A DNA stretch of 64,000 nucleotides, taken from positions 1-64,000 of the forward strand of contig NZ_JAAMPJ010000015.1 of the NCBI RefSeq assembly GCF_011067745.1. The letters are read 5' to 3'. Position numbers and translations under genes: made by a program. The stretch is from Lentzea alba (GTDB taxonomy: Bacteria > Actinomycetota > Actinomycetes > Mycobacteriales > Pseudonocardiaceae). Numbering within the stretch: the first letter of the stretch is position 1; the number at the start of each line of letters is the position of its first letter. The notes under the pieces are model-generated. The model searched no databases. It saw only the letters and a program-made list of their open reading frames with translations, and had not been told where the DNA came from. Below are positions 7,067 through 25,134 of this stretch, in pieces.

Positions 7067-7354
7067 TCAGGTTCGAGTTCGCCAGGTGTGCCAACCGGTG
7101 GCCACGGGGACGGCCGCTGTCAGCAGAGCGCCCAGCACGATCACCAGGACGGATGAGACCTGCACGCCTGCGATGATCAGGGTCAACCCGGCCACGTACA
7201 TGGCGGTCATGACGACGCTCGATTTGATGCTGTGTCGTGTGCCGGCCTCGGCAGTGCCCAGGGCAGCCAGCTTCTGGGCGAGTTCTGGGGATTCGTCGGC
7301 GAGGTGTTGCTCGATCTCGGCGAGTTGCCGTTTTTCGAAGTCTTGTATGGCCAT
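7067..7354 (-). CDS. DUF3040-family membrane protein
   Basis: A 95-residue protein. The N-terminal amphipathic helix DFEKRQLAEIEQHLADESPEL is the DUF3040 signature, and two hydrophobic helices (about 52-70 and 72-90) follow. The start is chosen at the ATG preceded by GAGGAGGGACC. An alternative GTG at 7468 would overlap the stop codon of the upstream gene but would add 38 non-conserved residues. The family's function is unknown. Three members occur in this window, each beside stress-related genes. It lies between the hibernation factor and a small membrane protein. Confidence 0.82.
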   Translation of the reverse strand: MAIQDFEKRQLAEIEQHLADESPELAQKLAALGTAEAGTRHSIKSSVVMTAMYVAGLTLIIAGVQVSSVLVIVLGALLTAAVPVATGWHTWRTRT

Positions 7355-7464
7355 GATCCGGTCCGGTCCCTCCTCGAGGTGTGATAGTTCGTTCCTGGAA
7401 CGGTTGCGACACCGGTGTCCACATGCGACAGCGTCGCGCGTCTTGGTCTCTGACTGCGTGACGG

Positions 7465-8511
7465 TCACTTCCGCAGCAGTGCGGCGGCCATTGTGTCCTT
7501 CGACATGCGTTGCGCGGGGACGGTGAACACCGATCCCGCGTGGTTGAGCACGGCCACCGCGGCGGTGCCGAGCCGCTCGTGCAAAGTTGGCTCGTCGGGC
7601 AGGCGGATGGCCACGGGTTCATCCGGATGCTGTCCCCACCACGTGGACTCGGTGGCCACGATGAGGGTCTGGATGTGACCGTGTTCCGCTGCGGTGACGA
7701 TCTGGGTCGGCTCGTGGAGGGTTCGGCTTGTGCCGCGCAGTGCCTGCACTGCGTCGACCGTGGCGAAGTCGCGTGCTCGCAACTCGGGTTCGACGATCGG
7801 CCAGGTGCGACGGTGCATTGTTTCCGGGCTGATCCGGTCCGCGGTGTCCGTGATCGTGGGCGTCATCAGGCTTGGCCAGGAACTGATCCGGCGGTAGGTC
7901 GCTTGCAGGTGGGGTTCGCCGACTACCACCAGCGGTGCTTTGGTCTGGCCCGCCGCGTCGCGAATGACGGCCTCGATCAACTCGAAGTGTTGGTGGGCAA
8001 GCGGTGTGCGGACGTCGAGAGAGCCGAGTGACGTGAGCTCGTCGAAACCGGAGCGGGTGCCCGCGAACAGGCGGGTCTCGGCCTCTCCCAGTTGGAGCAC
8101 CAGGAACCTGCCACCCGCGTTGAGGGCGGGCAGTAGCGGTGTGAGGGTGAACCTGTCGCCCACGGTCGCCATCTCTGGAAGCGTTGTCGGAACCCAGTAC
8201 GTCCGTGTAGCACCGGAGCTTGCGAACAAGGCGATTCCGTTGGCGGGGCGTTCCCACAACCACATGTCTTCCACGAGGTCCCAGGCCCCGCACATGACGG
8301 CAGCGATGTCGGTAGTGCTCATCCCGTCGGTCCGCAGAACGTGTTCCGCTCGCCGCACGAGGTTCCAGAAACGAACACGGGCCGGAAGCGCTGAATGGCC
8401 GGTACGCCGGGTCGGAAGGAACATCGACACCCGGCGACCGCCGCGATCCGCGGCGAGGCGGGTGAACTCGTCCACGTGCGGCACAGTGCAGCCGGACACA
8501 GCCGTTCGCAC
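7465..8511 (-). CDS. eRF1/pelota-like ribosome hibernation factor (baeRF3/Balon type)
   Basis: A 348-residue protein of the bacterial archaeo-eukaryotic release factor family. The core reads FLVLQLGEAETRLFAG near residues 135-150, with HQHFELIEAVIRDA and PLVVVGEPHLQATYRR further on. The C-terminal third has an eL30/pelota-like fold (IQTLIVATESTWWG near 280, then GTAAVAVLNHAGSVFTVPAQRM). Members such as Balon in Psychrobacter and its mycobacterial homologue bind the ribosomal A site during cold or dormancy and protect idle ribosomes. The GTG start has AGGAGG five bases upstream. A decayed second copy lies at 19229-19758. The role here is inferred from the family and from the Usp, DUF3040 and DksA-like neighbours. 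Confidence 0.8.
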   Translation of the reverse strand: MRTAVSGCTVPHVDEFTRLAADRGGRRVSMFLPTRRTGHSALPARVRFWNLVRRAEHVLRTDGMSTTDIAAVMCGAWDLVEDMWLWERPANGIALFASSGATRTYWVPTTLPEMATVGDRFTLTPLLPALNAGGRFLVLQLGEAETRLFAGTRSGFDELTSLGSLDVRTPLAHQHFELIEAVIRDAAGQTKAPLVVVGEPHLQATYRRISSWPSLMTPTITDTADRISPETMHRRTWPIVEPELRARDFATVDAVQALRGTSRTLHEPTQIVTAAEHGHIQTLIVATESTWWGQHPDEPVAIRLPDEPTLHERLGTAAVAVLNHAGSVFTVPAQRMSKDTMAAALLRK

Positions 8512-9210: not shown

Positions 9211-10442
9211 ATGAACACTCACGTGATCGTCGGCGCGGGCCTGGCCGGCGCCAAGACCGCAGAGGCACTGCGCACCAAGGGCTTTGCTGGGCGGATCGTG
9301 CTCGTCGGTGACGAGCCGCATCGGCCGTACGAACGTCCGCCGCTGTCCAAGAACGTGCTGATCGGCAAAGCCGCAGCCGACAGTGCCTACATCCACGACG
9401 AAAGCTGGTACACCGCACATGAGGTGGACCTGCGTCTCGGTGTCCCGGTCGCGAGGATTGATCGCGGTGCACATCGGGTCGACCTCGCTGACGGCACGCA
9501 GATCAGCTACGACAAGCTGCTGCTGGCCACCGGCGCCCGGCCCCGCACGCTACGGGTACCCGGTGCGACCGCCGAGGGCGTACATCACCTGCGGCGGATC
9601 GAGGACTCTCAGCGCCTGCGCGAGACGTTCGTGCCCGGATCGCGCCTGGTGGTCGTCGGCGCCGGCTGGATCGGCCTGGAAGCCACCGCGGCAGCGCGGC
9701 AGGCCGGCGTGGAGGTGACCGTGCTCGAATCAGCCGAACTGCCACTGTTGAAGGCGCTGGGCCCCGAGGTGACGCCGGTGTTCGTGGATCTGCATCGCCA
9801 ACACGGAGTGGACCTGCAGTTCGGGGTCTCCGTCCACGAACTCACCGCCGCCGAAGGCAAGGTCACCAGCGTGCGGCTCGTCGACGGCGCGGTCGTCCCG
9901 GCTGACGCCGTGCTTGTTGGTGTCGGTGCCATTCCCAACACCTACCTCGCGGAGAAGAGCGGCCTCGCCGTCGACAACGGGATTCTGGTGGACGCATCGC
10001 CGATCCGGACGTCTTCGCGGCCGGTGACGTCGCGAACGCCTGGCTCCCGACGCTGGGTGACCGGATCAGGGTCGAGCACTGGGCCAACGCGCTCAAGCAG
10101 CCCGCCGTCGCCGCCGCCGGAATGCTGGGTGAGCACGCCGAGTACGACGAGCTGCCCTACTTCTACACCGACCAGTACGACCTGGGCATGGAGCACATCG
10201 GCCACACCTCTGACTACGACTAGGTCGTGTTCCGCGGTGACGTCACCGGCCGGGAGTTCATCGCCTTCTGGCTCAAGGGCGACGTGGTGGTGGCGGACAT
10301 GAACGTGAACGTCTGGGACGTCACCGACGCCGTCAAGGGCTTGATCCGCTCGGCCGCCCAGATCGATCCGGCGCTGTTGACCGACCCCTCTGTGCCGCTG
10401 GAGAGCCTCGTCACGTCACGGGTACAACAGGCAACCTGTTGA
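9211..10442 (+). pseudogene. FAD-dependent ferredoxin/rubredoxin reductase, frameshifted and with an in-frame TAG
   Basis: The first 260 codons encode a good NAD(P)H:ferredoxin reductase-type flavoprotein. They include the FAD motif VIVGAGLAGAKTAEALR, ERPPLSKNVL, ATGARPRTLRVPG and the NAD motif VVVGAGWIGLEATAAARQAG. Near 9991-10013 the reading frame shifts; the family motif DPDVFAAGDVANAWLP continues in the next frame. That frame then meets TAG at 10221-10223, between TSDYD and VVFRGDVTGREFIAFW, where homologues usually have Glu, Gln or Arg. The family C-terminus continues to 10442. Two independent lesions argue for a true pseudogene, though both could be sequencing errors. Such reductases pass electrons from NADH to a ferredoxin for P450s or oxygenases, none of which is nearby. 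Confidence 0.85.
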
Positions 10443-10786: not shown

Positions 10787-12742
10787 CTATACCCCTGCGG
10801 TCGCTTTGACCAGTGGAATCTGTCCGCCGGCGAGCACCATGGCGACCTGTCGAGGGGAGAGGCGGTGGCGGACGAGGAACTGGGCGCCAGTGGTCTCGTT
10901 GTGCACCAGGATTTCGTTGCCTGCCTCGGTTTCCACTCGCAGCTCAGGCAGGAACAGCCGATCTCCGGCACTGACCCGGTCGTAGTCCTGCGGGTCGGTG
11001 AACTCCAGTGCCAGCACACCGAAGTTGGCGAGGTTCTGCCAGTGGATGCGGGCATAGGACTTCGCGATGACCGCGCGCAGGCCGAGGTAGCGAGGTGCGA
11101 TCACGGCGTGCTCGCGGGATGAGCCCTGCCCGTAGTTGGCGCCGCCGACGATGATGTGTTGCCTCGCCTCACGTGCCCGCTCGGCGTAGCGTTCGTCGAT
11201 CTGTGCGAAGGTGAACTCGGCCAGCCTTGCGATGTCGCTGCGGAACGGGAGCACGCGGCTCCCTGCGGGCAGGATCTCGTCGGTGGACACGTTGTCGCCG
11301 ACCTTGATCATCACTGGGGCGTTCAACACGTCGGGCAGGGGATCGAACTCGGGCAGTGCACCGATGCTGGTCGCCTTCACCAGTTCGATCTGCCTCGCGT
11401 CGGCAGGGGAGAGCGGCGGTTCGAACACGGCCTCGGTCACCGTGGACCGGTCGGGCAACGACAGCACCGGGTGGTCGATGCCCAGCAGTTCGGGCAGTGT
11501 CCTCGGGTCGGTGATGGTGCCGGTGAGCGCGGCGGCCGCAGCTGTCTCCGGAGAGCACAGCCACACCGAGTCCTCCTTGGTGCCGGACCGGCCGGGGAAG
11601 TTGCGCGGCACGGTGCGCAGACTGTTGCGGCCGACTGCCGGCGCCTGGCCCATGCCGATGCATCCCATGCAGCCGGTCTGGTGCAGCCGTGCGCCTGCTT
11701 TGATCAGGTCGAGGGTGGCGCCCATGCCGGTGAGATCGGCCAGGATCTGCCGGGAGGTCGGGTTGACGTCCACGGACACCTGGGGATGTGCCTGGCGTCC
11801 GGCCAGAATCGCCGCGACCACCGCGAAATCCCGCAATCCGGGGTTGGCGGAGGAGCCTATGACCACCTGATGGACCTCCTTGCCCGCGACCTCGCGCACC
11901 GGCACGACGTTGCCCGGTGAGCTGGGTGTGACGATCAGCGGCTCCAGGCGTGCGAGGTCGATCTCGTCCTCGACGTCGTAGCCCGCGTCTGGATCGGCGA
12001 GCAGCTCTACGAAGTCGTCGGCTCTTCCTTCGGTGGTGAGGAAGGCCAGCACCTGGTCGTCGGCGGGAAACACGGTCGTGGTGGCGCCGAGTTCCGCGCC
12101 CATGTTCGCGATGACGTGCCTGTCCATCGCCGACAGCGCGGCCAGGCCCGGTCCGTGGTACTCGATGATCCGGCCTCTGCCCCCGCTCACTCCGTGGCGG
12201 CGCAGCATCTCGAGGATGACGTCCTTCGCCGACACCCACGGTGGCAGCGCGCCGGTCAACCGCACGCCCCACACTTCGGGCATCGTCAGGTTCAGCGGTT
12301 GACCGGCCATCGCCATGGCCACCTCCAGGCCACCCACGCCGACCGCGAGCATGCCCAGCGATCCAGCGGCGCAGGTGTGCGAGTCGGAACCGAGCAAGGA
12401 GGCACCCGGTACGCCGAATCGCTGCATGTGCACCGGGTGTGCAACACCGTTGCCCGGCTTGGAGAACCAGACGCCGAAACGGTGGCACGCCGAGCGCAGG
12501 AACAGGTGGTCGGCCATGTTCCGCTCGTCGGTCTGCAGCAGGTTGTGGTCGACGTACTGCACCGAGGTGTGGGTACGGACCCGGTTCAGTCCGAGCGCTT
12601 CGAGTTCGAGCATGACCATGGTCCCAGTGGCGTCCTGGGTCAGCGTCTGGTCGATGCGCAACGCGATCTCCTGGCCCGCTGTCATGGAGCCGCCGACGAG
12701 GTGGGAGCCGATCAGTTTCTGGGTGACGTTGAGTCGGGTCAC
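10787..12742 (-). CDS. aconitate hydratase
   Basis: A 651-residue aconitase/isopropylmalate isomerase-superfamily enzyme that converts citrate to isocitrate through cis-aconitate. The three [4Fe-4S] ligands are visible: one Cys in GSDSHTCAAGS and two in GCMGCIGMG. The swivelling C-terminal domain carries GANYGQGSSREHA. It is shorter than the ~900-residue AcnA type and resembles the short bacterial aconitases. The GTG start overlaps the TGA of the pyruvate dehydrogenase gene (GTGA), so translation was coupled. It is the last gene of a five-gene unit beginning at 16741. Homoaconitase or another related isomerase cannot be excluded. Confidence 0.9.
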   Translation of the reverse strand: MTRLNVTQKLIGSHLVGGSMTAGQEIALRIDQTLTQDATGTMVMLELEALGLNRVRTHTSVQYVDHNLLQTDERNMADHLFLRSACHRFGVWFSKPGNGVAHPVHMQRFGVPGASLLGSDSHTCAAGSLGMLAVGVGGLEVAMAMAGQPLNLTMPEVWGVRLTGALPPWVSAKDVILEMLRRHGVSGGRGRIIEYHGPGLAALSAMDRHVIANMGAELGATTTVFPADDQVLAFLTTEGRADDFVELLADPDAGYDVEDEIDLARLEPLIVTPSSPGNVVPVREVAGKEVHQVVIGSSANPGLRDFAVVAAILAGRQAHPQVSVDVNPTSRQILADLTGMGATLDLIKAGARLHQTGCMGCIGMGQAPAVGRNSLRTVPRNFPGRSGTKEDSVWLCSPETAAAAALTGTITDPRTLPELLGIDHPVLSLPDRSTVTEAVFEPPLSPADARQIELVKATSIGALPEFDPLPDVLNAPVMIKVGDNVSTDEILPAGSRVLPFRSDIARLAEFTFAQIDERYAERAREARQHIIVGGANYGQGSSREHAVIAPRYLGLRAVIAKSYARIHWQNLANFGVLALEFTDPQDYDRVSAGDRLFLPELRVETEAGNEILVHNETTGAQFLVRHRLSPRQVAMVLAGGQIPLVKATAGV

Positions 12743-15345
12743 GGATGCCTCCGTTGATCTCTATCTTGGCTGGCTTTCTGGCCGCGGTAGGCCTGTGCCG
12801 CCTTGCTCAGCACCGAACCGGGCATTTCGCCGGAAGCGACCAGTCGCTCCAGCACCTGGAGCACGATCGACGGAGCGTCGACCCGGAAGTAGCTGCGCAG
12901 GGCACGGCGGGTGTCGGACCGGCCGAACCCGTCGGTGCCGAGTGAGGACCAGTTGCCCCACACGAACGGCGCGATCTGATCGGGCACCGCACGCATCCAG
13001 TCCGACACCGCCACCACTGGCCCGGCCTGCTCCATGAGTTGAGAGGTGACGTGGGGAACGCGCCGAGGCCCCTCTGGGTGCGCGAAGTTCCACTCGTCGA
13101 CCGCGAGGGCTTCACGTCGAAGCTCAGTCCACGACGTCACCGACCACACGTCGGCGCGCACGTCCCAGTCCTCATGCAAGATGCGCTGCGCTTCCAGTGC
13201 CCACTGCACGGCGATCCCCGAGGCGAGGAGCTGCGCACGTGGCTCGTCTCCCTGACCGCCGTCGGCGTAGAGGTACATCCCGGCCAGGATGCCGTCGACG
13301 TCGACGTTGTCGGGCTACGCGGGCTGGACGGTCGGTTCGTTGTAGACGGTGAGGTAGTAGAAGACGTTCGGGTCCTGGCCTTCTCGGACGTCGCCGTACA
13401 TCCGCCGCAGACCGTCCCGCACGATGTGGCCGAGCTCGAACGCGAACGCGGCGTCGTACGTGACACACGCCGGGTTAGTCGACGCGAGCAGCAGCGAGTG
13501 GCCGTCCCCGTGTTGCAGCCCTTCGCCATTGAGTGTCGTCCGGCCCGCCGTGGCGCCGATGAGAAATCCGCGGGCCATCTGGTCCGCAGCGGCCCACAAC
13601 CCGTCTCCGGTGCGCTGGAAGCCGAACATGGAGTAGAAGATGTAGACAGGGATCATGGGTTCGCCGTGGGTGGAGTACGAGGTGCCCGCAGCGGTCCACG
13701 ACGCGACAGAGCCGGCCTCGGTGATGCCCTCGTGCAGGAGGACTCCCTTGGTGTCCTCCTGGTAGCTCAGCATCAGCTCCCGGTCCACCGAGAGGTACTT
13801 CTGCCCGTGGGGCGAGTAGATCTTCTTGGACGGGAACAGCGAGTCCAGTCCGAAGGTGCGGGCCTCGTCGGGGATGATCGGCACGAACCGGTGCCCGATC
13901 TGCTCGTCCTTCATGAGTTCCTTGAGCAGCCGGACGAACGCCATGGTCGTGGCGACCTCGCGCGTGCCCGAGCCACGTTGCGCGATCTCGTACGCCGCGT
14001 CACGGGGGAGGAGTAAGGCTTGGCTGCGTGCCGTGCGGGAAGGCAGGGATCCGCCCAGGGCACGGCGCCGCTCACGCAGGTACTCCAGGTCCTCTGAGTT
14101 CTCCCGTGGCCGGTGGTACGGCGGCAGCGTGTCGTCGAGTTCCGAGTCGGGGATGTCGAGATAGAGCCGGTCGCGGAAACCCTTGAGGTCCTCAAGGGTG
14201 AGCTTCTTCATCTGGTGAGTGGAGTTGCGGCTCTCGAAGTGCGAGCCGAGTGAGTAGCCCTTGAGGGTTTTGGCCAGAATGACGGTCGGCGTGCCGGTGT
14301 GCTCCACCGCGGCGCGGTAAGCGGCGTAGATCTTGCGGTAGTCGTGGCCGCCGCGCTTGAGTCCCCAGATCTGTCCGTCGGACAGGTGGTGGACCATCGC
14401 CAGGGCGCGCGGGTCACGGCCGAAGAAGTGATCGCGGACGAAGCCGCCCGATTCCGCTTTGCAAGTCTGGAAATCGCCGTCCGGAGTGGAGTTCATGAGG
14501 TTCACCAGGACGCCGTCGCCGTCGGCCGCGAGCAGCGGATCCCATTCACGGCCCCAGATCACCTTGATGACGTTCCAGCCGGCGCCGCGGAAGTACGACT
14601 CAAGCTCCTGGATGATCTTTCCATTGCCGCGGACAGGACCGTCGAGGCGCTGCAGGTTGCAGTTGACGACGAAGGTCAGGTTGTCCAGTTCCTCTCTGGC
14701 GGCGACACCGATCGCGCCGAGTGACTCGGGTTCGTCGACCTCGCCGTCGCCCAGGAACGCCCACACTCGCTGGTGGCTCGTGTCCGCGATGCCGCGCGCG
14801 TGCAGGTAGCGGTTGAACCTGGCCTGGTAGATCGCGTTGAGCGGGCCGAGTCCCATCGACACGGTCGGGAACTGCCAGAAGTCCGGCATCAGCCGCGGAT
14901 GCGGGTACGCCGGCAGGCCGCCTCCACGCGAGCGGTGGGAGATCTCCTGGCGGAATCCGTCGAGCTGTTCCGCCCTCAGCCTGCCCTCGAGGAATGCGCG
15001 GGCGTAGACGCCGGGGGAGGCGTGGCCCTGGAAGTAGATCTGGTCGCCGCCGCCGTCAGCGTCAGGGCCGCGGAAGAAGTGGTTGAACCCGACTTCGTAC
15101 AGTGCTGCGGTCGAGGCGTAGGTGGAGATGTGACCGCCGACCTCGATGCCACGCCGCTGCGCGCGGTGTACCAGAATCGCGGCGTTCCAACGGTTGTACG
15201 CCCGGATCCGGCGTTCGATGTGTTCGTCGCCGGGATACGGCGGTTCGGCGTCCAGCGGGATCGTGTTTACGTAGTCGGTGTTGAGCAGGCTCGACACGCC
15301 CATCCTCCACAGTCCGGGCGGCTGGCGCTGACGGATGTCCGTCAT
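12739..15345 (-). pseudogene. aceE: pyruvate dehydrogenase E1 component, interrupted by an in-frame TAG
   Basis: The homodimeric type of pyruvate dehydrogenase E1, which decarboxylates pyruvate on thiamine diphosphate and passes acetyl groups to the E2 lipoyl domain. The ThDP motif [10 protein letters not shown] followed by [11 protein letters not shown] is intact, as are the start [13 protein letters not shown] and the end. A TAG at 13315-13317, in the same frame, separates YNEPTVQPA from PDNVDVDGILAGMYLY; homologues usually have Glu there, one base change away. Without it the protein would have 868 residues, close to family length. As it stands the gene makes a 676-residue protein lacking the C-terminal domain; an internal restart at 13278 would give the last 179. 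It overlaps both neighbours by 4 bases. Confidence 0.88.
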
Positions 15346-15731
15346 GGCCGTTCCCCTCTTTCGGGTCGTGGCACGTTGCCGTGCCGTTCGGCGGTCAGGG
15401 TGCGTGTCACAAAGCGCGCCACCTGCGATGGTGAGGGGCGTACCTCAGCCGTCAAGCGGGCCAGCACTCGCGGTTGCTGGGCGGGGGATGCTGGTTCGGT
15501 GGCCAGCGCCCACCCGCTGTTGCCTGACCAGGTCAGCATCAGATCGCGGTCGGGGAACGCGGGACTGCGAGCGGTCAAGGCGATGTAGCCGGTCGCGGTG
15601 TCGGCGAGTTCGGAGGCGACGCCGTCGGCCGGTTGCCCGACGGCGAGGGCGACCGCTTCGACGTAGCGACGCAGGCTGTGCTCGGCGTACCAGGCGGTGT
15701 GGTCGGCTCGATCGGCTACCCACGTCGTCAT
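15342..15731 (-). CDS. DUF6292-family protein
   Basis: A 129-residue soluble protein typical of Pseudonocardiaceae. The pattern [55 protein letters not shown] is the DUF6292 core. A basic C-terminal extension follows. Its function is unknown. Both ends overlap neighbours in ATGA fashion, with the transaldolase-like gene upstream and aceE downstream, so it is made in step with metabolic enzymes. DUF6292 proteins are otherwise usually found in accessory regions, so this position inside a metabolic operon is unexpected. Confidence 0.8.
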
Positions 15732-16375
15732 GGCGTTCTTCCTCTGCTGTGCAAGGCTTTGCCGAGTTCAAGGTCGAGTTGGTACCAGGCGGTGTTGACC
15801 ACGGCGACGCTGTCGTCTTCGACCTGTTGTGCCTCGTCGTGCTCAGGCAGCACATCGGCGTAGCGAGTCCGCGAGCAGATCTGGGTGGCGTTGACGCTGA
15901 TGCCCTCGGCCAGACAAGCCGTGATCGCGGACAGCCCTGGCCGCGTCGCGGCGATGCCGACCACCAAGTTCGGCCGGTCCACCAGCCACCACAGGGCTTT
16001 CGCCTCGGCGACGATGCGATCGGTGTCGTGGGCGCTGCGCGGGTCCAGGTCGACGCAAATACGACCGTCCACACCGGAGCTTCTCACGTAGACCTCCTGC
16101 AGGACATCGCAAGCCCACCGCGCGTCGTAAGCGATCAACGCGCGAAGAGCCTCGTCCGCGCTGACCTCGCGCAGCGCCAGCTCCTGTATCTGCGGCAGGT
16201 AGACGTCGCTGTCGACGAGGGTCTTGGCGAAGGCTGCCAGGCTGAGTGTCGCGCCCCTCACGTGACGATCCCGGACCAGAGCGGCGAAGCTGCCGTCGGA
16301 CAGTTGCCGTCGGCTGAGGTCGTCCAACCAGTTCGAGGATTCGGTGCGCGCGGGAGTTACGTGCTGGCAGCTCAT
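15728..16375 (-). CDS. transaldolase-like protein lacking catalytic residues
   Basis: A 215-residue protein that aligns with the first 60% of transaldolase (usual length 360-370). It matches over NWLDDLSRRQLSDG, DLDPRSAHDTDRIVAEAKAL, LVDRPN and LAEGISVNATQI. The Schiff-base lysine of the KIPAT motif is replaced (VVGIAAT), the T-x-N-P motif has become GATLSL, and the conserved Glu of the EVDPR segment is Asp. The C-terminal third, with the phosphate-binding residues, is absent. It therefore cannot be an active transaldolase and may be a regulator or a remnant. The frame is clean, the ATG follows AAGGAGGTGTC, and the stop overlaps the next start, which argue for a maintained gene. Confidence 0.78.
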   Translation of the reverse strand: MSCQHVTPARTESSNWLDDLSRRQLSDGSFAALVRDRHVRGATLSLAAFAKTLVDSDVYLPQIQELALREVSADEALRALIAYDARWACDVLQEVYVRSSGVDGRICVDLDPRSAHDTDRIVAEAKALWWLVDRPNLVVGIAATRPGLSAITACLAEGISVNATQICSRTRYADVLPEHDEAQQVEDDSVAVVNTAWYQLDLELGKALHSRGRTP

Positions 16376-16462
16376 GACACCTCCTTGGTGTGTCCACTCC
16401 AGACGAACCCTGGTGCGATCCGTGCCCGGCATCGACGGCGGAGATGCCGGACACGGACGCGG

Positions 16463-16741
16463 TCATGAGCGGCGACGGCCTCGGTCGATGCGGCGGCGCC
16501 GCGCCACCCACGCCCAGCCGGCCACCGCGGCGAACAGCAGCGCGCTGGCCGGCAGCCCTACTGCCAGCATGAACAAGCTCAGAGGAGCGGCCACGGCGAT
16601 CGTGATCGCGTAGACATACCGGCGAAGGTCGCGGACCAGGCGGCGTTCGGCGGCCTCGAGACCATGAGCGACGTTCGGATCCTCGTCCCAGAACTGGCGC
16701 TCGATCTCGTGGAGCGTCTCGCGTTCGCGGTCACTGAGCAC
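16463..16741 (-). CDS. DUF3040-family membrane protein
   Basis: A 92-residue protein. It starts at GTG, six bases after AGGAGG, with the family N-terminus VLSDRERETLHEIERQFWDED, then two hydrophobic helices (about 45-62 and 64-80) and an Arg-rich tail. The start and RBS are nearly the same as in the paralogue at 20736. An 18-bp operator-like sequence shared by both genes lies 38 bases upstream. It is the first gene of the run that continues with the transaldolase-like, DUF6292, aceE and aconitase genes, after an 87-bp gap. Its function is unknown. Confidence 0.82.
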   Translation of the reverse strand: MLSDRERETLHEIERQFWDEDPNVAHGLEAAERRLVRDLRRYVYAITIAVAAPLSLFMLAVGLPASALLFAAVAGWAWVARRRRIDRGRRRS

Positions 16742-16778
16742 GACGCACCTCCTGCGGATCATGGCAGGACCTACCTGA

Positions 16779-16796
16779 GTATCGTATCACGATATA
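16779..16796. promoter_or_regulatory. 18-bp operator, copy 1 (MarR/DUF3040 divergent region)
   Basis: GTATCGTATCACGATATA on the plus strand. Its exact reverse complement, TATATCGTGATACGATAC, is at 20688-20705. It contains the inverted arms TATCG and CGATA around a 5-base centre, a size and form usual for MarR dimers. It lies between the divergent DUF3040 (16741) and marR (16852) starts, so a bound protein could control both. Confidence 0.75.
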
Positions 16797-16851
16797 AACT
16801 CGTTGGCGGGTCGGAGAGCCGAAGGTCGGAAAGACGTGGTGTCATAGGATC

Positions 16852-17277
16852 ATGACGACGGAGGGCGAGCCGCTGACCAAGCGGGACTTCGAGGCGCTGG
16901 CACGGTTCCGCTTCGGCATCCGCAGCTATCTCCGGTTCAGCGAGGAGACCGTGCGCAGCCACGGGCTCACCCCGCAGCAGTACCAGCTGTTGCTGGCGCT
17001 CAAAGGTTTTCCGGAGCGCGACTGGGCCAGCGTGCGCGAGCTCGCGGACCGGCTGCAGCTGCGCCACAACAGCGTCGTCGAACTGATCAACAGAGCCCAG
17101 GGCCAGGGCCTCGTGACACGGGCCGCGCATCCGACCGACGCGCGGGCCGTGCGGGTGCTGCTGACCAAACAAGGCGAGAAGGTTCTCTCGCAGTTGAGCG
17201 CGCTGCACCGTGACGAACTGCAGCGGATGGGATCGGTTCTCATGCCACCCGTGTGGTCCGAGTTTCCGCCCGCGTGA
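16852..17277 (+). CDS. MarR-family transcriptional regulator
   Basis: A 141-residue winged-helix repressor-type protein. The HTH lies around residues 55-80 (ASVRELADRLQLRHNSVVEL), and the wing is TRAAHPTDARAVRVLLT. The flanking helices form the dimer interface. No cysteine pair of the OhrR type is seen, so the ligand is not obvious. It is divergent from the DUF3040/aceE unit, with the 18-bp operator between them. The simplest inference is that it represses itself, that unit and the second operator-bearing unit at 20.7 kb. DUF488 and PucR genes follow on the same strand. Confidence 0.88.
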   Translation: MTTEGEPLTKRDFEALARFRFGIRSYLRFSEETVRSHGLTPQQYQLLLALKGFPERDWASVRELADRLQLRHNSVVELINRAQGQGLVTRAAHPTDARAVRVLLTKQGEKVLSQLSALHRDELQRMGSVLMPPVWSEFPPA

Positions 17278-17314
17278 CAAGTATGGTCGAGTCCGGTACA
17301 GGTCGGAGGTTCCG

Positions 17315-17680
17315 ATGACGCAGCAGACGGTCCACGTCCGCCGGGTGTACGACGAGGCTGACGCCGGCGAGTCCGTTCGGCTGCTGGTGGACCGGGTGTG
17401 GCCTCGCGGCATGCGCAAGGACACCGGCGCCTTCGACGAGTGGGTCAAGGACGTCGCGCCGTCCGCCGAGCTGCGCACCTGGTATGCCCATGAGGTCCGC
17501 AGGTTCGCCGAGTTCCGCCGCCGCTACCGCGCGGAGCTCGACACGCCGGTGGGACGGCGCAACGTGCAGGAGCTGCGAGACCGGTCGGAGGGTCGTCCGC
17601 TGACCCTGCTCACCGCGACCAGGGACGTCGAGCACAGCCACGCCGCAGTCCTCGCCGAGGTGCTCCGGAGGGCTCGATGA
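17315..17680 (+). CDS. DUF488-family protein
   Basis: A 121-residue soluble protein with the DUF488 pattern: VRRVYDEADAG, LLVDRVWPRGMRK, W.KDVAPSAELRTWY, then F..RYRAEL and LTLLTATRDVEHSHA. In other genomes the family sits beside stress and redox genes. Its biochemical role is not established. GGAGGT lies five bases before the ATG. Its stop overlaps the start of the PucR gene (ATGA), so the two are coupled. It follows the MarR gene closely. Confidence 0.85.
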   Translation: MTQQTVHVRRVYDEADAGESVRLLVDRVWPRGMRKDTGAFDEWVKDVAPSAELRTWYAHEVRRFAEFRRRYRAELDTPVGRRNVQELRDRSEGRPLTLLTATRDVEHSHAAVLAEVLRRAR

Positions 17681-18909
17681 CGCCCAAGGCCGGCAGCAGA
17701 CGCCGCAAGGCGGGCCCGAGCGTGAACGAGCCCGGTGAGGCCTGGCTGACCGGCGTCGCCGAGGACGCCAGCGCGGCGGCGGGCGGCGTGCCGGTCGAGC
17801 TGCTGGGTGACTACCTGCCGTTGCTGGCCGACGCCGCCGCGAACGGGCGCAAGCCCCGGCGCTCGGAACTGGAGGCGGTGGAGGCGCTGGGCCGCCGCGC
17901 CGCGGAACTGGGTGTCTCGGCCGGCAGCGCCGTGCAGCTGTACCTGTCGGCGTCCTGGCGGCTGTGGCGGGAGCTTCCTGTGGTGGTCCGTTCCAGCGAC
18001 AGCGAGGTCGTGCGCGCCGCCGCCGAGACCGTGTTGCACGTGGTCGCCGACGCGGTCGCGATCCTGGCCGACGGATACAACTCCGCCCGCCGTCAGATGG
18101 TCAGGCGCGAGGAGACGTTGCGGCGGGAACTGATCGACGACCTGCTGCGCGGTGATTCCGACGTCGGTGGGATCGTGGAGCGTGCCGAGCCGTTCGGCCT
18201 GGACCTCGCGCGGCCGCATCAGGTCGCGCTGGCCGCACCACATCGGCGGCTCCCCGACGTCGACGCGGCGACCAGTTCGCTGGAGCGGATCGTGCTGGAC
18301 CGGCTCGGTGACCGTGATGTCCTCGTCGCGACGAAGGACGGACTGGTGGTCGTTCTCGCGCCAGGCGAGTCCGAATCTCCGGGGCGAACGCGGACGGACC
18401 TCGGCTCGCTGATGCTCGCCGAGCTCGATCGACTGCCGCGCGGCAGGCCGTGGCAGGTGGCGGTCGGCCGAGCCTACCCAGGCTCGTACGGCATCGCCCG
18501 TTCCTACGAGGAGGCGCGCGAGGCGTTGACGATGGCGTCGAGGCTGCACCTGGACACCCCGGTGATCCGGGCCGAGCAACTGCTCGTCTACCGCGTGCTG
18601 GTGCGTGACCAGCCGGCGATCGTCGACTTGGTCAACGCCGTGCTCGGTCCGCTCGAGAAGGCCCGTGGCGGGGCGGAACCGTTGCTGGCCACCCTGGAGA
18701 CCTATTTCGCCACAGGTGACGTGGCCACCGAGACCGCCCGGCAGCTGCACCTGTCTGTGCGCGCGGTCACCTACCGGCTCGGCCGGATCAAAACCCTGAC
18801 CGGCTACGACCCCACCGATCCGGCCCACAGATTCACCCTCCACGCCACCGTGCTGGGAGCGAGACTGCTCGGCTGGCCCAAGAACGAGCCAGCCAACGCC
18901 CACAGCTAA
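17677..18909 (+). CDS. PucR/CdaR-family transcriptional regulator
   Basis: A 410-residue regulator. The N-terminal half is a helical sensor-like part. The middle (about 190-310) is a degenerate GGDEF-like domain. The C-terminus holds the PucR HTH: LLATLETYFATGDVATETAR then LHLSVRAVTYRLGRIKTLTGYD. Members activate purine, sugar-diacid or other catabolic genes, and in actinomycetes several affect stress and secondary metabolism. Its target here is unknown. It is coupled by ATGA to the DUF488 gene and is probably transcribed from the marR promoter. Confidence 0.88.
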   Translation: MTPKAGSRRRKAGPSVNEPGEAWLTGVAEDASAAAGGVPVELLGDYLPLLADAAANGRKPRRSELEAVEALGRRAAELGVSAGSAVQLYLSASWRLWRELPVVVRSSDSEVVRAAAETVLHVVADAVAILADGYNSARRQMVRREETLRRELIDDLLRGDSDVGGIVERAEPFGLDLARPHQVALAAPHRRLPDVDAATSSLERIVLDRLGDRDVLVATKDGLVVVLAPGESESPGRTRTDLGSLMLAELDRLPRGRPWQVAVGRAYPGSYGIARSYEEAREALTMASRLHLDTPVIRAEQLLVYRVLVRDQPAIVDLVNAVLGPLEKARGGAEPLLATLETYFATGDVATETARQLHLSVRAVTYRLGRIKTLTGYDPTDPAHRFTLHATVLGARLLGWPKNEPANAHS

Positions 18910-19228
18910 CTCAGCCTTGCCGCTGGTCCCATGGCGGGAGCAGACCGACAACCACGATCCTGCCCTGAGTTCCGTCGCCACGGCCACGGTCGGCACCGGA
19001 ACCGCATCCGACCGCGCTGTTGCCGGTGCTCGGCAACGACTGTGCGCCCCGCACCTGCGAACTTCAAGCGATCTCGTCGATCTCGGCCACCCATCACGGA
19101 GATGTTGCCGATGACCGGCAAGTTGATCGCGGGCTAGTTGACCGGTCGGAGCCGCTGCCGAACGTCGGCCGCAGAAGACAGAGTTGAAGTCAACCGGCTC
19201 GAACCCCTTGACCACAAAGGAGGTTGAA
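18910..19228. other. about 320 bp without a gene
   Basis: No coding frame with a recognisable product. It separates the PucR gene from the decayed hibernation-factor copy. At its right end AAAGGAGG, six bases before a GTG, looks like a surviving ribosome binding site of that pseudogene. Confidence 0.5.
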
Positions 19229-19758
19229 GTGCGTCCTGCTCACCTTGTCGCGGAACCAGGCTCCTCTCACACAACCAAAAGTCGTCAATCAGGAGCGCAG
19301 GCAACGGTCTTGCGGGGTTCACGAGTCCGGAGCCGACGCTCCGTTCCTGGTCCTCGTGCTGATCGGTGACGAGACGCGGCTTTACCGCGGAACCAGGTTC
19401 CAAGTGGACGAAGTTGCCTCGAAGAGCCTTCTGACTGATTGCGAAACGCTGATGCGCCAACACTTCCATCAGGTCGACGCGGCCGTGCGAGAGGCGGCAG
19501 GCGAGAAGAAGATGCCGCTGGTCGTGCTCGGTGCCCGTCACCTCCAGGACACCTATCGCGATGTGAGCACCTTTCCCGATCTGCTTCTCCCGACCATCAT
19601 CGGAGGCCTGGTGGATCTGGCCCCCGAGGCGATCCATCGGTGTGCGTGGAGCATCGTGGAACCGGAACTGCAGGCGCACGAGTACGCCGCGGCAGACGAA
19701 CACCACGCCCAGCAGGGCACCGGCCGAACAGTGCTATCGCTCAACCCTGGAGACCATC
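19229..19758 (+). pseudogene. decayed second copy of the baeRF hibernation factor
   Basis: An intact-looking RBS (AAAGGAGG) and GTG start a short frame, which shifts. From about 19340 a long stretch matches the middle of the protein at 7465-8511: FLVLVLIGDETRLYRGTRF aligns with FLVLQLGEAETRLFAG, PLVVLGARHLQDTYRD with PLVVVGEPHLQATYRR, and APEAIHRCAWSIVEPELQAHEYA with SPETMHRRTWPIVEPELRARDFA. About 130 N-terminal residues and the C-terminal domain are missing. It shows that this island once had two hibernation-factor genes or that one locus was duplicated. Confidence 0.8.
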
Positions 19759-20256
19759 ATGCACAGTGTGCCGGTCATGGAGACCGCGCCACCGAGTCGG
19801 CTCACCGGCAATCTACCCGCGCTGAAGATCCGGCTGGAGCGAGAACGCGCGTTCCGGCTAGAGCAGCTCGCGGAGCTCGACGGGGCGTCCGGCGCGACCA
19901 CCCAGCCTGGTGACCAAGCGATGCGCCAGGTGGCGGAGCAGGTGGCCGCCGCTGCCACGGTCGCACTCAACGACATCGACATCGCTCTCCTGCGCATCGA
20001 CATCGGCTCCTACGGCCGCTGTCAGACCTGTCATGCGGACATTCCGATCCGTCTGCTGGAGGCGATTCCGCAGCTGCGACTGTGCCTGGCATGTCAGCAC
20101 ACCGACACGAGGAAGGGATCCCGTCATGGTGAACCAGTCAGCCGGCAGCGTCAGCGAGCACCCGCTGTCCGTGCGCAGACTCCTGCGAGGCAACGTGTTC
20201 GGCGCGGAACGTCAACAGCTGGGCGACGTGACCGACATAGCCGTTCGCCTACGTGA
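19759..20256 (+). CDS. TraR/DksA-family zinc-finger protein
   Basis: A 165-residue protein. A coiled-coil-like helical part (ALKIRLERERAFRLEQLAEL and QAMRQVAEQVAAAATVALNDID) is followed by the four-cysteine zinc finger, CQTC then 17 residues then CLAC. DksA-like proteins insert a coiled coil into the RNA polymerase secondary channel and tune transcription, often with ppGpp; the acidic tip residues of true DksA are not clear here. The last ~45 residues are Arg-rich and lie on top of the next gene, so the original stop was probably lost and the natural protein was nearer 120 residues. The next RBS lies within this gene. Confidence 0.82.
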   Translation: MHSVPVMETAPPSRLTGNLPALKIRLERERAFRLEQLAELDGASGATTQPGDQAMRQVAEQVAAAATVALNDIDIALLRIDIGSYGRCQTCHADIPIRLLEAIPQLRLCLACQHTDTRKGSRHGEPVSRQRQRAPAVRAQTPARQRVRRGTSTAGRRDRHSRSPT

Positions 20257-20635
20257 CGGGCAATACCCGCTGGTGATCGGCGCAGAGGCCCTTGTCGGTG
20301 GCAGTGAGGAGTTCCTGCCCAACGCGAGTCTGGCGCGATGGCACTCCGATGGGGTGCAGGTGCTCGACGAACCGGACCGACGTCCCCCTCCAGAACGCGA
20401 CGGCACCGTGCTGATGTGCTCAGAGCTGCTGGGACAGCAGCTGAGCGACCTGCAGCGTGGCCGGCAGGTCCGCGTGTACGACCTCCTGCTGTCTCACTCG
20501 GCCGAGGGATGGGTGCTCTCCAGGGTCGATACCAGAGGCTGGGCCAGTCGCACTTTCGGGAAACGCTTCCTGAGCGATGGCCGCCTTGACTGGAAGATGC
20601 TCCATTCGAGGGAAGGCTACGAGTTGGACCACTGA
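20126..20635 (+). CDS. PRC-barrel-like domain protein (unknown role)
   Basis: A 169-residue soluble protein. It appears to have two repeats of a PRC-barrel-like unit: SVRRLLRGNVFGAERQQLGD with IAVRLRDGQYPLVIGAEALVGG, then LGQQLSDLQRGRQVRVYDLLL with WVLSRVDTRG. Similar regions are found at the N-terminus of actinobacterial MgtE-associated proteins and in stress-island proteins. GAGGAAGGGA stands 8 bases before the ATG. It overlaps the end of the TraR/DksA gene by 131 bases. The assignment rests on the repeat pattern only. Confidence 0.6.
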   Translation: MVNQSAGSVSEHPLSVRRLLRGNVFGAERQQLGDVTDIAVRLRDGQYPLVIGAEALVGGSEEFLPNASLARWHSDGVQVLDEPDRRPPPERDGTVLMCSELLGQQLSDLQRGRQVRVYDLLLSHSAEGWVLSRVDTRGWASRTFGKRFLSDGRLDWKMLHSREGYELDH

Positions 20636-20687
20636 CGAGGCAGACATTCGTTTGCGCAGCACTGTCTCCCTGAGCGCCCGACGCAGA

Positions 20688-20705
20688 TATATCGTGATAC
20701 GATAC
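20688..20705. promoter_or_regulatory. 18-bp operator, copy 2 (ahead of DUF3040-slipin)
   Basis: TATATCGTGATACGATAC, identical on the opposite strand to the sequence at 16779-16796. It ends 30 bases before the GTG of the DUF3040 gene, so it probably overlaps that promoter. The orientation relative to the DUF3040 gene is the same at both loci. Confidence 0.75.
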
Positions 20706-20735
20706 TAGCATCTGCGAGACACCAGGAGGTGTGTC

Positions 20736-20990
20736 GTGCTCAGTGAGTCCGAACGCGAGACGCTGCATGAGATACAACGCAAGCTCTCCGGCGATGATCC
20801 CGACTTCGCACGGTACTTCCACGGCGTCGGCCCGCCCGCGCCCGTCGTGCACCGCCAGTCGGCTCGGGCCAGCTTCGTCGTCGTGACGGAGATGGTCATC
20901 GCGCTGGCGGTCGTTGGTCCCAACATCCTCACGGACACCCAGATCTCCGCTCTCACGGTGCCTCCGGCGCCGCGAAGGAGGACGAAATGA
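20736..20990 (+). CDS. DUF3040-family protein, short form
   Basis: An 84-residue protein starting at GTG behind AGGAGGTGTC. The family helix LSESERETLHEIQRKLSGDD is conserved, but only one hydrophobic segment (about 50-65) remains, so it is shorter than the other two copies in the window. The stop overlaps the slipin start (ATGA), which ties it to a membrane-scaffold protein. The operator at 20688-20705 lies immediately upstream. Its function is unknown. Confidence 0.78.
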   Translation: MLSESERETLHEIQRKLSGDDPDFARYFHGVGPPAPVVHRQSARASFVVVTEMVIALAVVGPNILTDTQISALTVPPAPRRRTK

Positions 20991-21862
20991 ACGTTGTGTA
21001 CGTGCTGCTGCTCACCGCCGCAGGCATTGGCCTGTTCGGGCTGATGTCGAGCGTTCGGGTCATCACCCAGTACGAGCGAGGCGTCCTCTTCCGCTTCGGT
21101 CGCGTCCGCTCGGGGATTCGCGGCCCAGGGCTGGTGTTGCTCATGCCGATCGCCGACCGCCTGCGCAAGGTCAGCATGCAGATCATCACGATGCCGGTCC
21201 CGGCCCAGGACGGCATCACCCGCGACAACGTGACCGTGCGCGTCGACGCCGTGGTCTTCTACAAGGTCTCCGATCCCGTCCGCGCGATCGTGGACGTGGA
21301 GGACTACAACGCCGCAGTCGGCCAGGTCGCACAGACCTCGCTGCGCTCGATCATCGGCAAGAGTGATCTGGACGACCTGTTGTCGAACAGGGAACGGCTG
21401 AACCAGGGCCTGGAACTGATGATCGACAGCCCGGCGCTCGACTGGGGTGTGCACATCGACCGCGTGGAGATCAAGGACGTGGTACTGCCGGAGTCCATGA
21501 AGCGATCGATGTCGCGTCAGGCCGAGGCTGAACGCGAGCGGCGAGCTCGCATCATCACCGCGGACGGTGAATTGCAGGCGTCGACCAAGCTTGCCAGCGC
21601 TGCGGAGACCATGACCGAGCATCCCGCCGCGTTGCAACTGAGGCTGCTGCAGACCGTGGTCGAGGTAGCGGCGGAGAAGAACTCCACGCTCGTGTTGCCG
21701 TTCCCGGTCGAGCTGCTCCGTTTCCTGGAGCGGGCGACACCGCCGGAAGGCCCGCGCACACCTTCGGTGAGCAACGGCCGGACGGGTTCTCGTCCGGCGC
21801 CCGCCCCCGGCATCCTCGACGTCGACCAAGTGGCGCCGGTCGGCGCCCGCGCTTCCTGTTAG
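20987..21862 (+). CDS. slipin / SPFH-domain membrane scaffold protein
   Basis: A 291-residue stomatin-like protein. An N-terminal membrane helix (about 3-22) is followed by the SPFH domain with VRVITQYERGVLFRFGRV, PAQDGITRDNVTVRVDAVVFYK and LRSIIGKSDLDDLLSNRE. The coiled-coil region is Glu/Arg-rich (RQAEAERERRARIITADGE). Proline-rich low-complexity sequence ends the protein. Slipins oligomerise in the inner leaflet and organise membrane domains, often with NfeD proteases, which are not seen here. It is coupled to the DUF3040 gene upstream, and a Usp gene follows after 65 bp. Confidence 0.92.
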   Translation: MNVVYVLLLTAAGIGLFGLMSSVRVITQYERGVLFRFGRVRSGIRGPGLVLLMPIADRLRKVSMQIITMPVPAQDGITRDNVTVRVDAVVFYKVSDPVRAIVDVEDYNAAVGQVAQTSLRSIIGKSDLDDLLSNRERLNQGLELMIDSPALDWGVHIDRVEIKDVVLPESMKRSMSRQAEAERERRARIITADGELQASTKLASAAETMTEHPAALQLRLLQTVVEVAAEKNSTLVLPFPVELLRFLERATPPEGPRTPSVSNGRTGSRPAPAPGILDVDQVAPVGARASC

Positions 21863-21927: not shown

Positions 21928-22779
21928 ATGACTGGATTGCCCCGCATCGTGGCCGGCTTCGACGGTTCCCCGGACAGCGCTCTGGCGTTGGAGTGGGCGC
22001 TGGCGGAAGCACACCTGCGAGGTGCAAGGATCGACCTGTGTCACGTCCGCAAGGGGCCTCGAACGGAGGCCGGCGACGACCACGCGGGTGCCAGGGATCT
22101 CGGGGGAGACGTACTTACCCGCGGCCTTGAACACGCCGACCACTGGACACCACCTGTTCCGGTGGCTGCGCGGCTGCTGGCAGGGAACCCGGTGCAGCAG
22201 TTGCTGGCCATCGCCACGGACGCGCTGTTCCTCGTTGTGGGCGCGCGCGGCACCGGTGGGTTTCGCGGGCTGCGGCTGGGGTCGGTCAGCGACCAGGTCG
22301 CGCGACATGCCCGATGTCCAGTCGTTGTTGTTCCCGATCCTGGAGAGCATCGCGACGGTACGCGTGATCGGAAGGTTGTGGTCGGAGTCGACGGCTCCGC
22401 GGGCTCCGATGCGGCTCTTGCCTTCGCGTTCGACGAGGCGGCCCGCCGCCAGGCGGAACTGTGCGCGATCCACGTGTTCGACCCGTCCGCCGTGCAGATC
22501 ATGGCCAACCTTCCACAAGCAGACGTGCGGCGACTCCACCTGGAGGCGTCGAACACACTGAGCAATTTGCTCGCAACCCACACGAGCCAGCATCCATGCG
22601 TACACGCGTGCGCAGAGGTCTTGTCAGGTTCGCCGGCCGCGACACTGACCGCCGCGGCGTCCAACGCCGAATTGCTGGTACTCGGTTCACGAGGGCATGG
22701 CGGCTTCGTCACCCTGGTTCTGGGTTCGACCAGCCACAGCGTTCTGCACCACGCCAGTTGCCCGGTCGTCGTCGTCTGA
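21928..22779 (+). CDS. tandem universal stress protein
   Basis: A 283-residue protein with two Usp domains (about 5-137 and 150-283). Each begins with the nucleotide-binding Asp (VAGFDGSPDSA and VVGVDGSAGSD) and ends with the phosphate loop G-x2-G-x9-G-S (GARGTGGFRGLRLGS and GSRGHGGFVTLVLGS). It is therefore predicted to bind ATP in both halves, like the mycobacterial tandem Usp proteins linked to dormancy. It lies downstream of the slipin gene and probably belongs to the same unit. A second tandem Usp is at 26434. Confidence 0.93.
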   Translation: MTGLPRIVAGFDGSPDSALALEWALAEAHLRGARIDLCHVRKGPRTEAGDDHAGARDLGGDVLTRGLEHADHWTPPVPVAARLLAGNPVQQLLAIATDALFLVVGARGTGGFRGLRLGSVSDQVARHARCPVVVVPDPGEHRDGTRDRKVVVGVDGSAGSDAALAFAFDEAARRQAELCAIHVFDPSAVQIMANLPQADVRRLHLEASNTLSNLLATHTSQHPCVHACAEVLSGSPAATLTAAASNAELLVLGSRGHGGFVTLVLGSTSHSVLHHASCPVVVV

Positions 22780-24308: not shown

Positions 24309-24622
24309 TCTCGGTTCTGCTCGACGTGATCGGTGGCGTGCTGCTCCTTCTCGGCCTGGTGCTGCTCACGATCAGCCTCGTCGGCATCTTGCGGCTGCCC
24401 GGCACCTACGGCCAGCTGCACGCCCAGGGACTGGCCACCGGGCCTGGTGTGATCGCGATCCTGGCGTCCTCGATCGCCACCGAGAACGCCGCGACCATCA
24501 CCTTCGCCGTGCTCGCGATCGTGTTCATCGCACTCGCCTCGCCGGTGTCCAGCCACGCGATCGCCAGGGCCGCCCACCGCCGTGGTCGACGGCGAGGCAG
24601 CGAGGGCGAGCCGGGAGATTAG
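24305..24622 (+). CDS. mrpG: Mrp-type Na+/H+ antiporter subunit G
   Basis: A 105-residue protein with three hydrophobic helices and the MrpG signature LVGILRLPGTYGQLHAQGLATGPG. A basic, polar tail follows. It is coupled to mrpF and is the last gene of the remnant operon. It converges on a MarR gene, with the two stop codons overlapping. Its function is doubtful without the large A and D subunits. Confidence 0.88.
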   Translation: MISVLLDVIGGVLLLLGLVLLTISLVGILRLPGTYGQLHAQGLATGPGVIAILASSIATENAATITFAVLAIVFIALASPVSSHAIARAAHRRGRRRGSEGEPGD

Positions 24623-25134
24623 GTGTCGATCCAGTCCGGGCGGGTGGCACCGCCGGGATCGAGGCGCTCGAGGATCTGTTGGTGAGCGGCGTGCATCTGG
24701 TTGAGCTGCACCGGATCGAGCACGTCCACCACCAGTTCGCGCACGAGGGCGACGTGACCGGACGATGCCCGTTCGACCGCGGCCATGCCAGCCGCGGTGA
24801 GCACCGCGCGAGAGGCACGGCCGTCGTCAGGGTCAGGTTCGCGACGGAGGAGACCACCGGCTTCGAGGCGCTTCACCACGTTCGACAGCCGGGACAACGA
24901 GGAACTGGTGAGCTGGGCGAGCTTGCTCATCCGCAGCGCCCGTCCCGGCAGTTCGGACAGCATCGACAGCACGTGGTACTCGAAGAAGTCGAGTCCAGCG
25001 TCGCGTTCGAGCTGCGCGTCGAGGGTCGTGCGCAGCTTGGTGAACACGCGCACCATGTCGAGCCACGCCAGGCGTTGCTCGGCGGTGAGCCAACGGGCAC
25101 CCGCGCCGCGCTCGGCGGCTGAGTCTGTAGTCAC
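24619..25134 (-). CDS. MarR-family transcriptional regulator
   Basis: A 171-residue winged-helix protein. The HTH is ALRMSKLAQLTSSSLSRLSN near residues 65-85, followed by VVKRLEAGGLLRREPDPDDG with the wing and the DDGRAS turn typical of MarR. The dimerisation helices at both ends are long. It is divergent from an NAD(P)-binding oxidoreductase gene. Two inverted repeats in the 75-bp space between them are probably its binding sites, giving autoregulation and control of the oxidoreductase and VOC genes. The inducer is unknown. Confidence 0.92.
   Translation of the reverse strand: MTTDSAAERGAGARWLTAEQRLAWLDMVRVFTKLRTTLDAQLERDAGLDFFEYHVLSMLSELPGRALRMSKLAQLTSSSLSRLSNVVKRLEAGGLLRREPDPDDGRASRAVLTAAGMAAVERASSGHVALVRELVVDVLDPVQLNQMHAAHQQILERLDPGGATRPDWIDT

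Follow-up and report, generated by a model that had tools for sequence, protein, structure and literature searches.

The stretch of Lentzea alba DNA analysed here (the window; 64,000 nucleotides, 64 kb, from contig NZ_JAAMPJ010000015.1) carries a gene for a regulator of the MarR family and two inverted copies of one 18-base-pair (bp) word, each close to a gene of the DUF3040 family. We describe this word as an operator, and the adjacent MarR protein as its likely regulator. The features at the center of the analysis are as follows.

16779-16796, no strand: operator A, TATCGT-ATC-ACGATA, between the divergent genes DUF3040a and marR
20688-20705, no strand: operator B, the same palindrome, upstream of DUF3040b and slipin
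16852-17277, plus strand: marR, 141 residues (MarR_2, 1.7e-15), the candidate binder of both operators from family match, fold, and co-occurrence
16463-16741, minus strand: DUF3040a by Pfam (scanned as 16463-16762), predicted target of operator A
20736-20990, plus strand: DUF3040b by Pfam, predicted target of operator B
20987-21862, plus strand: slipin (Band_7) by Pfam, overlapping DUF3040b by 4 bases
21928-22779, plus strand: universal stress protein (Usp) by Pfam, 65 bases after slipin

A sequence search of the window places the word GTATCGTATCACGATATA at 16779-16796 on the plus strand and its exact reverse complement at 20688-20705, confirming the inverted pair noticed in a sequence-only reading of this DNA; no third copy exists in the window at up to 3 mismatches. 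The word is a near-palindrome: arms TATCGT and ACGATA flank a 3-base spacer (TATCGT-N3-ACGATA). Operator A lies in the divergent promoter region of marR, as that reading had said, 55 bases before the ATG start at 16852. The gaps to the DUF3040 starts had been given as 38 and 30 bases; the second is right (operator B to the GTG at 20736), and the first is 37 (operator A to the GTG at 16741, minus strand). The genome holds 9 DUF3040 genes, and the core of the word precedes 2 of them.

Length alone does not establish the repeat. The sequence-only reading had judged a chance 18-base match very unlikely, which overrates the bare match: composition predicts 0.86 exact 18-mer pairs per 64 kb at an assumed guanine-plus-cytosine (GC) content of 70%, and about 0.5 by the same formula at the 67.4% measured in the window. 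The bare match is little proof on its own, and we accept the observation as real because the word is an adenine- and thymine-rich (AT-rich) palindrome and because of the comparative evidence. An exact 12-base AT-rich palindrome is expected at about 0.04-0.06 sites per 10 Mb at 68-70% GC. The genome search with mismatches that the earlier reading proposed found no scatter: with up to 2 mismatches allowed, the 15-base core TATCGTGATACGATA occurs in only two places on the 34 contigs of the 10.2-Mb genome. We read the pair of 18-mers as a real operator.

The marR product belongs to the MarR family by sequence and by fold. It scores 57.3 bits for MarR_2 (cut-off 27) and 26.4 for MarR (cut-off 24.6), and its structural model has a mean predicted local distance difference test score of 89.4, with MarR, MepR, MexR, SlyA, and HpaR among its structural matches. 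Identity is 13-26% among the 50 best structural matches listed. The first in Foldseek is MftR with its operator DNA (8ylg_B, template modeling score 0.68 by query, 24% identity), and PecS with DNA is also among the matches; these two represent a urate-responsive group, and the likeness here is one of overall fold only. By sequence, the solved structures are distant relatives only (best 5.7e-11). Sensing of the OhrR type, through thiols, needs a reactive cysteine. Since none of 14 aligned MarR orthologues contains a cysteine, such sensing appears disfavored. Arginines 20, 24, and 28 of helix 1 are invariant, four proteobacterial sequences included, and one may speculate that they bind an anion.

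The palindrome and this MarR protein occur together. Both were sought in one set of 249 family genomes, where a close MarR means an orthologue at least 66% identical along almost all of its length. The exact palindrome is present in 12 of 13 genomes with a close MarR versus 4 of the 236 others (Fisher p 2.6e-16); the rate becomes 12/14 with a partial MarR match in G157 included, and 12/16 with all MarR matches at E<=1e-15 included (p 3.4e-14), and both p-values overstate independence, as the genomes are related. In the remaining genome with a close MarR (G244), marR is preceded by a site with 1 mismatch (L061). A backwards control pattern matches in 4 of the 249 genomes, so the four palindrome genomes lacking a close MarR (G026, G056, G095, and G107) are near background. 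In a sample of 394 genomes of the class, the MarR is present at E<1e-70 in 5, each with an exact site upstream of its gene; 12 further genomes have distant MarR relatives (E about 1e-31 to 1e-40). A strict pattern with 16 of the 18 bases specified matches 3 of the 394, two with a close MarR and one (G460) with a distant one. Regulator and palindrome recur together in other actinobacteria.

Within the genus Lentzea, 3 of 24 genomes contain the exact palindrome, and each contains it twice. In the two L. albidocapillata genomes (G004, G021), 551 and 607 bases separate the two sites, with marR between them, in the layout DUF3040 <- site -> marR, then site -> slipin. Past operator B, the window and L. 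albidocapillata have similar leaders, and in the window DUF3040b stands between this leader and slipin.

More distant relatives extend the pattern and supply target genes. We took the best 79 of 417 relatives from a contig scan with the MarR protein. In these loci, 53 sites are exact, 30 have one mismatch, and 29 have two, compared with 0/0/2 and 0/0/3 for two permuted controls. A site lies within 250 bases upstream of marR in 55 of the 79 at up to 1 mismatch, and in 64 at up to 2. The neighbors were counted for 92 distinct sites with at most 1 mismatch, drawn from the window, 7 further stretches picked for holding sites, and loci L064-L138 (L041, L043, L046, and L049 duplicate L065, L085, L097, and L131, and were counted once). 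They comprise 54 marR, 35 DUF3040-like, 14 slipin, 8 Usp, 3 pyruvate dehydrogenase E1 (E1; 2 loci), and 2 aconitase genes. At least one of these six families adjoins 72 of the 92 sites; 7 adjoin only other genes, and 13 have no called gene within 400 bases. The relatives' genes come from a home-made frame scorer that may miss genes or misplace starts, and the six target families, DUF3040-like among them, were delimited as BLAST clusters; Pfam confirmed the few members outside the window that were scanned (3 DUF3040, 2 slipin, 1 E1, and 1 aconitase).

Whole-genome searches show how far the sites stay local. Among 33 genomes, 31 have exact sites, 51 in total, a rate that is not unbiased because the genomes were picked from the 79 loci mostly for known exact sites. 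By coordinate, 43 of the 51 fall within the fetched marR loci and 8 elsewhere: two in G660, near ferredoxin and HTH_20 genes; two in G667, before DUF3040; one in G658, at DUF3040 and slipin; one in G670, at slipin; one in G647, with cytochrome oxidase subunit I, DUF488, and Usp nearby; and one in G674, at unrelated genes. In G196, marR has no upstream site at up to 2 mismatches, and both exact sites of the genome lie on different contigs from marR, one upstream of slipin and one upstream of DUF3040; these may be targets in trans.

The consensus of 79 sites outside Lentzea is 19 bp, TRTATCGTRNYACGATAYA, in which the inner columns are biased toward the window's motif, as the sites were found with its arms, and the outer columns are not. 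Ten loci (L069, L078, L079, L080, L081, L086, L094, L106, L114, and L115) have a pair of overlapping operators upstream of marR, offset by exactly 15 bases and resembling three or four half-sites in a row.

Co-occurrence, position, and the layout in relatives make the adjacent MarR the likely regulator, and the same evidence backs the operator and small regulon suggested by the sequence-only reading. We propose, with a probability of about 0.8, that the MarR protein encoded at 16852-17277 uses the 18-mer as its operator, in a local, autorepressed regulon released by a ligand; the regulon is very probably small and local. A MarR dimer would bind the palindrome at both operators. At operator A, it would cover the intergenic region and repress DUF3040a and its own gene; at operator B, it would repress DUF3040b-slipin and probably Usp, which, from the gap between them, probably shares a transcript with slipin. 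A small ligand would release MarR and thereby turn on a local membrane and stress module. We infer the dimer, its binding, repression and not activation, the extent of the operon, and release by a ligand. Repression is proposed because of the distances from site to start and because it is the usual MarR scheme in the excerpted text of PMC5487221.

Several observations weigh against this proposal. The 79 loci were selected by MarR itself, and relatedness inflates the family statistics. There are 15 of 79 marR genes without an upstream site at up to 2 mismatches: four are proteobacterial and have a related palindrome, one locus (L123) starts at the gene, and ten are others (L097, L102, L119, L120, L122, L126, L129, L133, L135, and L138). 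From the 12 class genomes with distant MarR relatives, the seven loci read (L183, L195-L200) have no site at up to 1 mismatch, with 2-mismatch sites in L196 and L198. Promoter and neighborhood data add two further points, each of which favors an alternative.

The first alternative is that MarR binds the site and activates, or that the sign of its effect depends on position. A sigma-70 promoter scan of 16300-20800 recognized no consensus promoter, so that overlap of operator and promoter is deduced from distance, and the distance from site to next gene ranges from 11 to more than 300 bases. Against this, most adjacent starts lie within 100 bases of the site (50/54 marR, 34/35 DUF3040-like, 7/8 Usp, and 8/14 slipin), and the MarR scheme described in the excerpts of PMC5487221 is repression of divergent genes with release by a ligand. 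We regard activation as rather unlikely.

The second alternative is that the palindrome is bound by a different regulator, with MarR a mere neighbor and target. HTH_20 proteins are encoded near sites in L042/L089, L051, L144, L145, L176, and the L092 locus, and in L144 and L145 the site lies between the HTH_20 gene and a divergent gene. PadR or Cro/C1-type genes are near sites in 3 of the 4 palindrome genomes without a close MarR: G056 has a site before a PadR gene, and G026 and G107 have a Cro/C1-type helix-turn-helix gene within about 1 kb. Such regulators may use look-alike palindromes (L030 for PadR; L033 and L034 for Cro/C1-type), and their presence lowers our confidence in MarR slightly. 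For HTH_20, co-occurrence was tested and ranks below MarR: the window's genome has the sites yet no HTH_20 match at E<=1e-15, and the HTH_20 protein is found in 51 of 249 family genomes and in 9 of 16 genomes with the motif, versus 12 of 16 for the close MarR. Furthermore, the genomes of L145 (G267) and L144 (G290) each have, at another locus, a close MarR gene preceded by an exact site of its own. We regard a different binder as improbable. Two other candidates were set aside, the second MarR of the window (24619-25134), found in 1 of the 79 loci, and PucR, found in 12.

In the same neighborhoods, the HTH_20-type regulator seen repeatedly near sites (L042, L051, L144, L145, and L176) has conserved C-terminal cysteines, and a 4Fe-4S-type ferredoxin is close to the site in L144, L145, and L176; Pfam was run for the L051 regulator and the L044 ferredoxin only.

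A DUF3040 promoter segment that was recently duplicated, with no regulatory significance, would account for both copies preceding DUF3040 genes with a common ribosome-binding site and start sequence. We consider this very improbable. The L. albidocapillata leader after operator B runs straight into slipin without a DUF3040 gene, operator A in that species retains its own flank, and in other genera the site is found at other gene families. The segmental duplication that the sequence-only reading listed as a refuter did not come true, given the separate flanks of the L. albidocapillata sites. The least credible alternative, close to negligible, is a chance repeat: composition would allow one in such a window, yet the word is absent from 100 shuffles of the window, and the palindrome recurs in the genus, the family, and the MarR-selected loci.

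Beyond the proposed targets, the locus contains the following features.

17315-18909, plus strand: genes for DUF488 and a PucR-type regulator, following marR
19224-19913: second baeRF-family frame, between the operators
20126-20635: unassigned frame, between the operators
16415-16460, minus strand: hairpin past the DUF3040a stop (-46.3 kcal/mol for a 90-base stretch, z -3.16)
10787-16375, minus strand: transaldolase-like, DUF6292, E1, and aconitase genes, left of DUF3040a on the same strand

A DksA/TraR zinc-finger frame also lies between the operators. The DUF488 and PucR-type genes are possibly cotranscribed with marR. The hairpin is a possible terminator or attenuator, and a terminator scan did not flag it as a T-tailed terminator. 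At 7067-8172 (minus strand), a third DUF3040 gene of the window adjoins a baeRF-family gene and has no operator.

The sequence-only reading had the regulon link pyruvate and citrate metabolism to the DUF3040-slipin-Usp unit. The latter side is supported; the metabolic side is weak here because no direct site precedes these genes, a strong hairpin separates them from DUF3040a, and E1 carries an in-frame stop. In the window, there is no site at up to 1 mismatch directly before aconitase, E1, or transaldolase. Among loci having the gene, E1 has a site in the 600 bases upstream in 2 of 4 and aconitase in 2 of 8; the counts are 0/6 for transaldolase, 0/10 for cytochrome oxidase subunit I, 0/13 for ferredoxin reductase, and 0/12 for PucR. 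The E1-like gene (12739-15345, minus strand) has an in-frame TAG at 13315-13317, either a nonsense mutation or a sequence error; all 4 relatives with the gene read on. Here, the transaldolase, DUF6292, E1, and aconitase genes are possible but uncertain members of the regulon, and at most indirect ones. Nearby, a ferredoxin reductase-type gene (9211-10442, plus strand) is split over two frames, and in relatives both parts are in one frame.

The four proteobacterial loci, whose MarR proteins have 48-50% identity, carry a related palindrome, TATATC-N7-GATATA, at 0-2 mismatches and 26-70 bases before marR in 4/4; 59 permuted arms gave no match in the four 110-base upstream stretches. The proteobacterial palindrome differs in its inner bases, and the proteins differ near residues 70-74 of the putative recognition helix, which suggests that these bases and residues vary together. 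Neither the operator nor the outer-form palindrome precedes marR in L133 (Chloroflexota, 65% identity) or L138. The proteobacterial neighbors include DsrC and a globin in L140, and a nitronate monooxygenase in L139. Two further assignments were dropped since Pfam gave no family: the L042 protein as a truncated globin, and the L141 protein as NnrS.

A wider reading is possible, if on the whole doubtful: an old MarR subfamily with its own operator, spanning actinobacteria to proteobacteria, that acts as a switch for respiratory or nitrosative stress and senses an anionic metabolite through arginines 20, 24, and 28. Within a genus, such a subfamily would occur in scattered genomes, as gene transfer would leave it. 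Its actinobacterial module would comprise slipin, DUF3040, Usp, a 4Fe-4S ferredoxin, an extra cytochrome oxidase subunit I, and aconitase and E1 paralogues; its proteobacterial neighbors would be DsrC, globin, and nitronate monooxygenase.

The kind of regulon is well known, and the finding is sound but fairly ordinary. HucR and other MarR regulators of divergent targets, in the excerpts of PMC5487221, share with it the winged helix, a palindrome in the shared divergent promoter, and presumed release by a ligand; the targets differ, here being DUF3040, slipin, Usp, and, in some relatives, E1 and aconitase. MhqR of Staphylococcus aureus, as the excerpts of PMC12893000 describe it, is likewise a MarR-type repressor, and its 9-9 bp palindrome opens with TATC (TATCTCGAA-ATCGAAATA). 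The comparison covers the operators: the window operator shares only the outer TATC, inner bases and spacing differ, and the MhqR targets given there, in quinone detoxification, are unlike those of the window. In the open-access literature, we found no paper joining MarR, slipin, and universal stress protein; none joining MarR, DsrC, and NnrS; and none joining the MarR family, Pseudonocardia, universal stress protein, and aconitase. Among the matches listed for Lentzea with MarR, or MarR with slipin, none was on-topic by title. DUF3040 itself is named in 3 papers of that literature. The MarR subfamily and its operator are likely previously undescribed. An orphan group of MarR proteins thereby gains a testable DNA site and a list of targets in several actinobacterial genera. 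DUF3040 genes, whose function is unknown, and slipin genes are placed under one likely switch, and the operator could serve as a reporter for finding the signal of this MarR.

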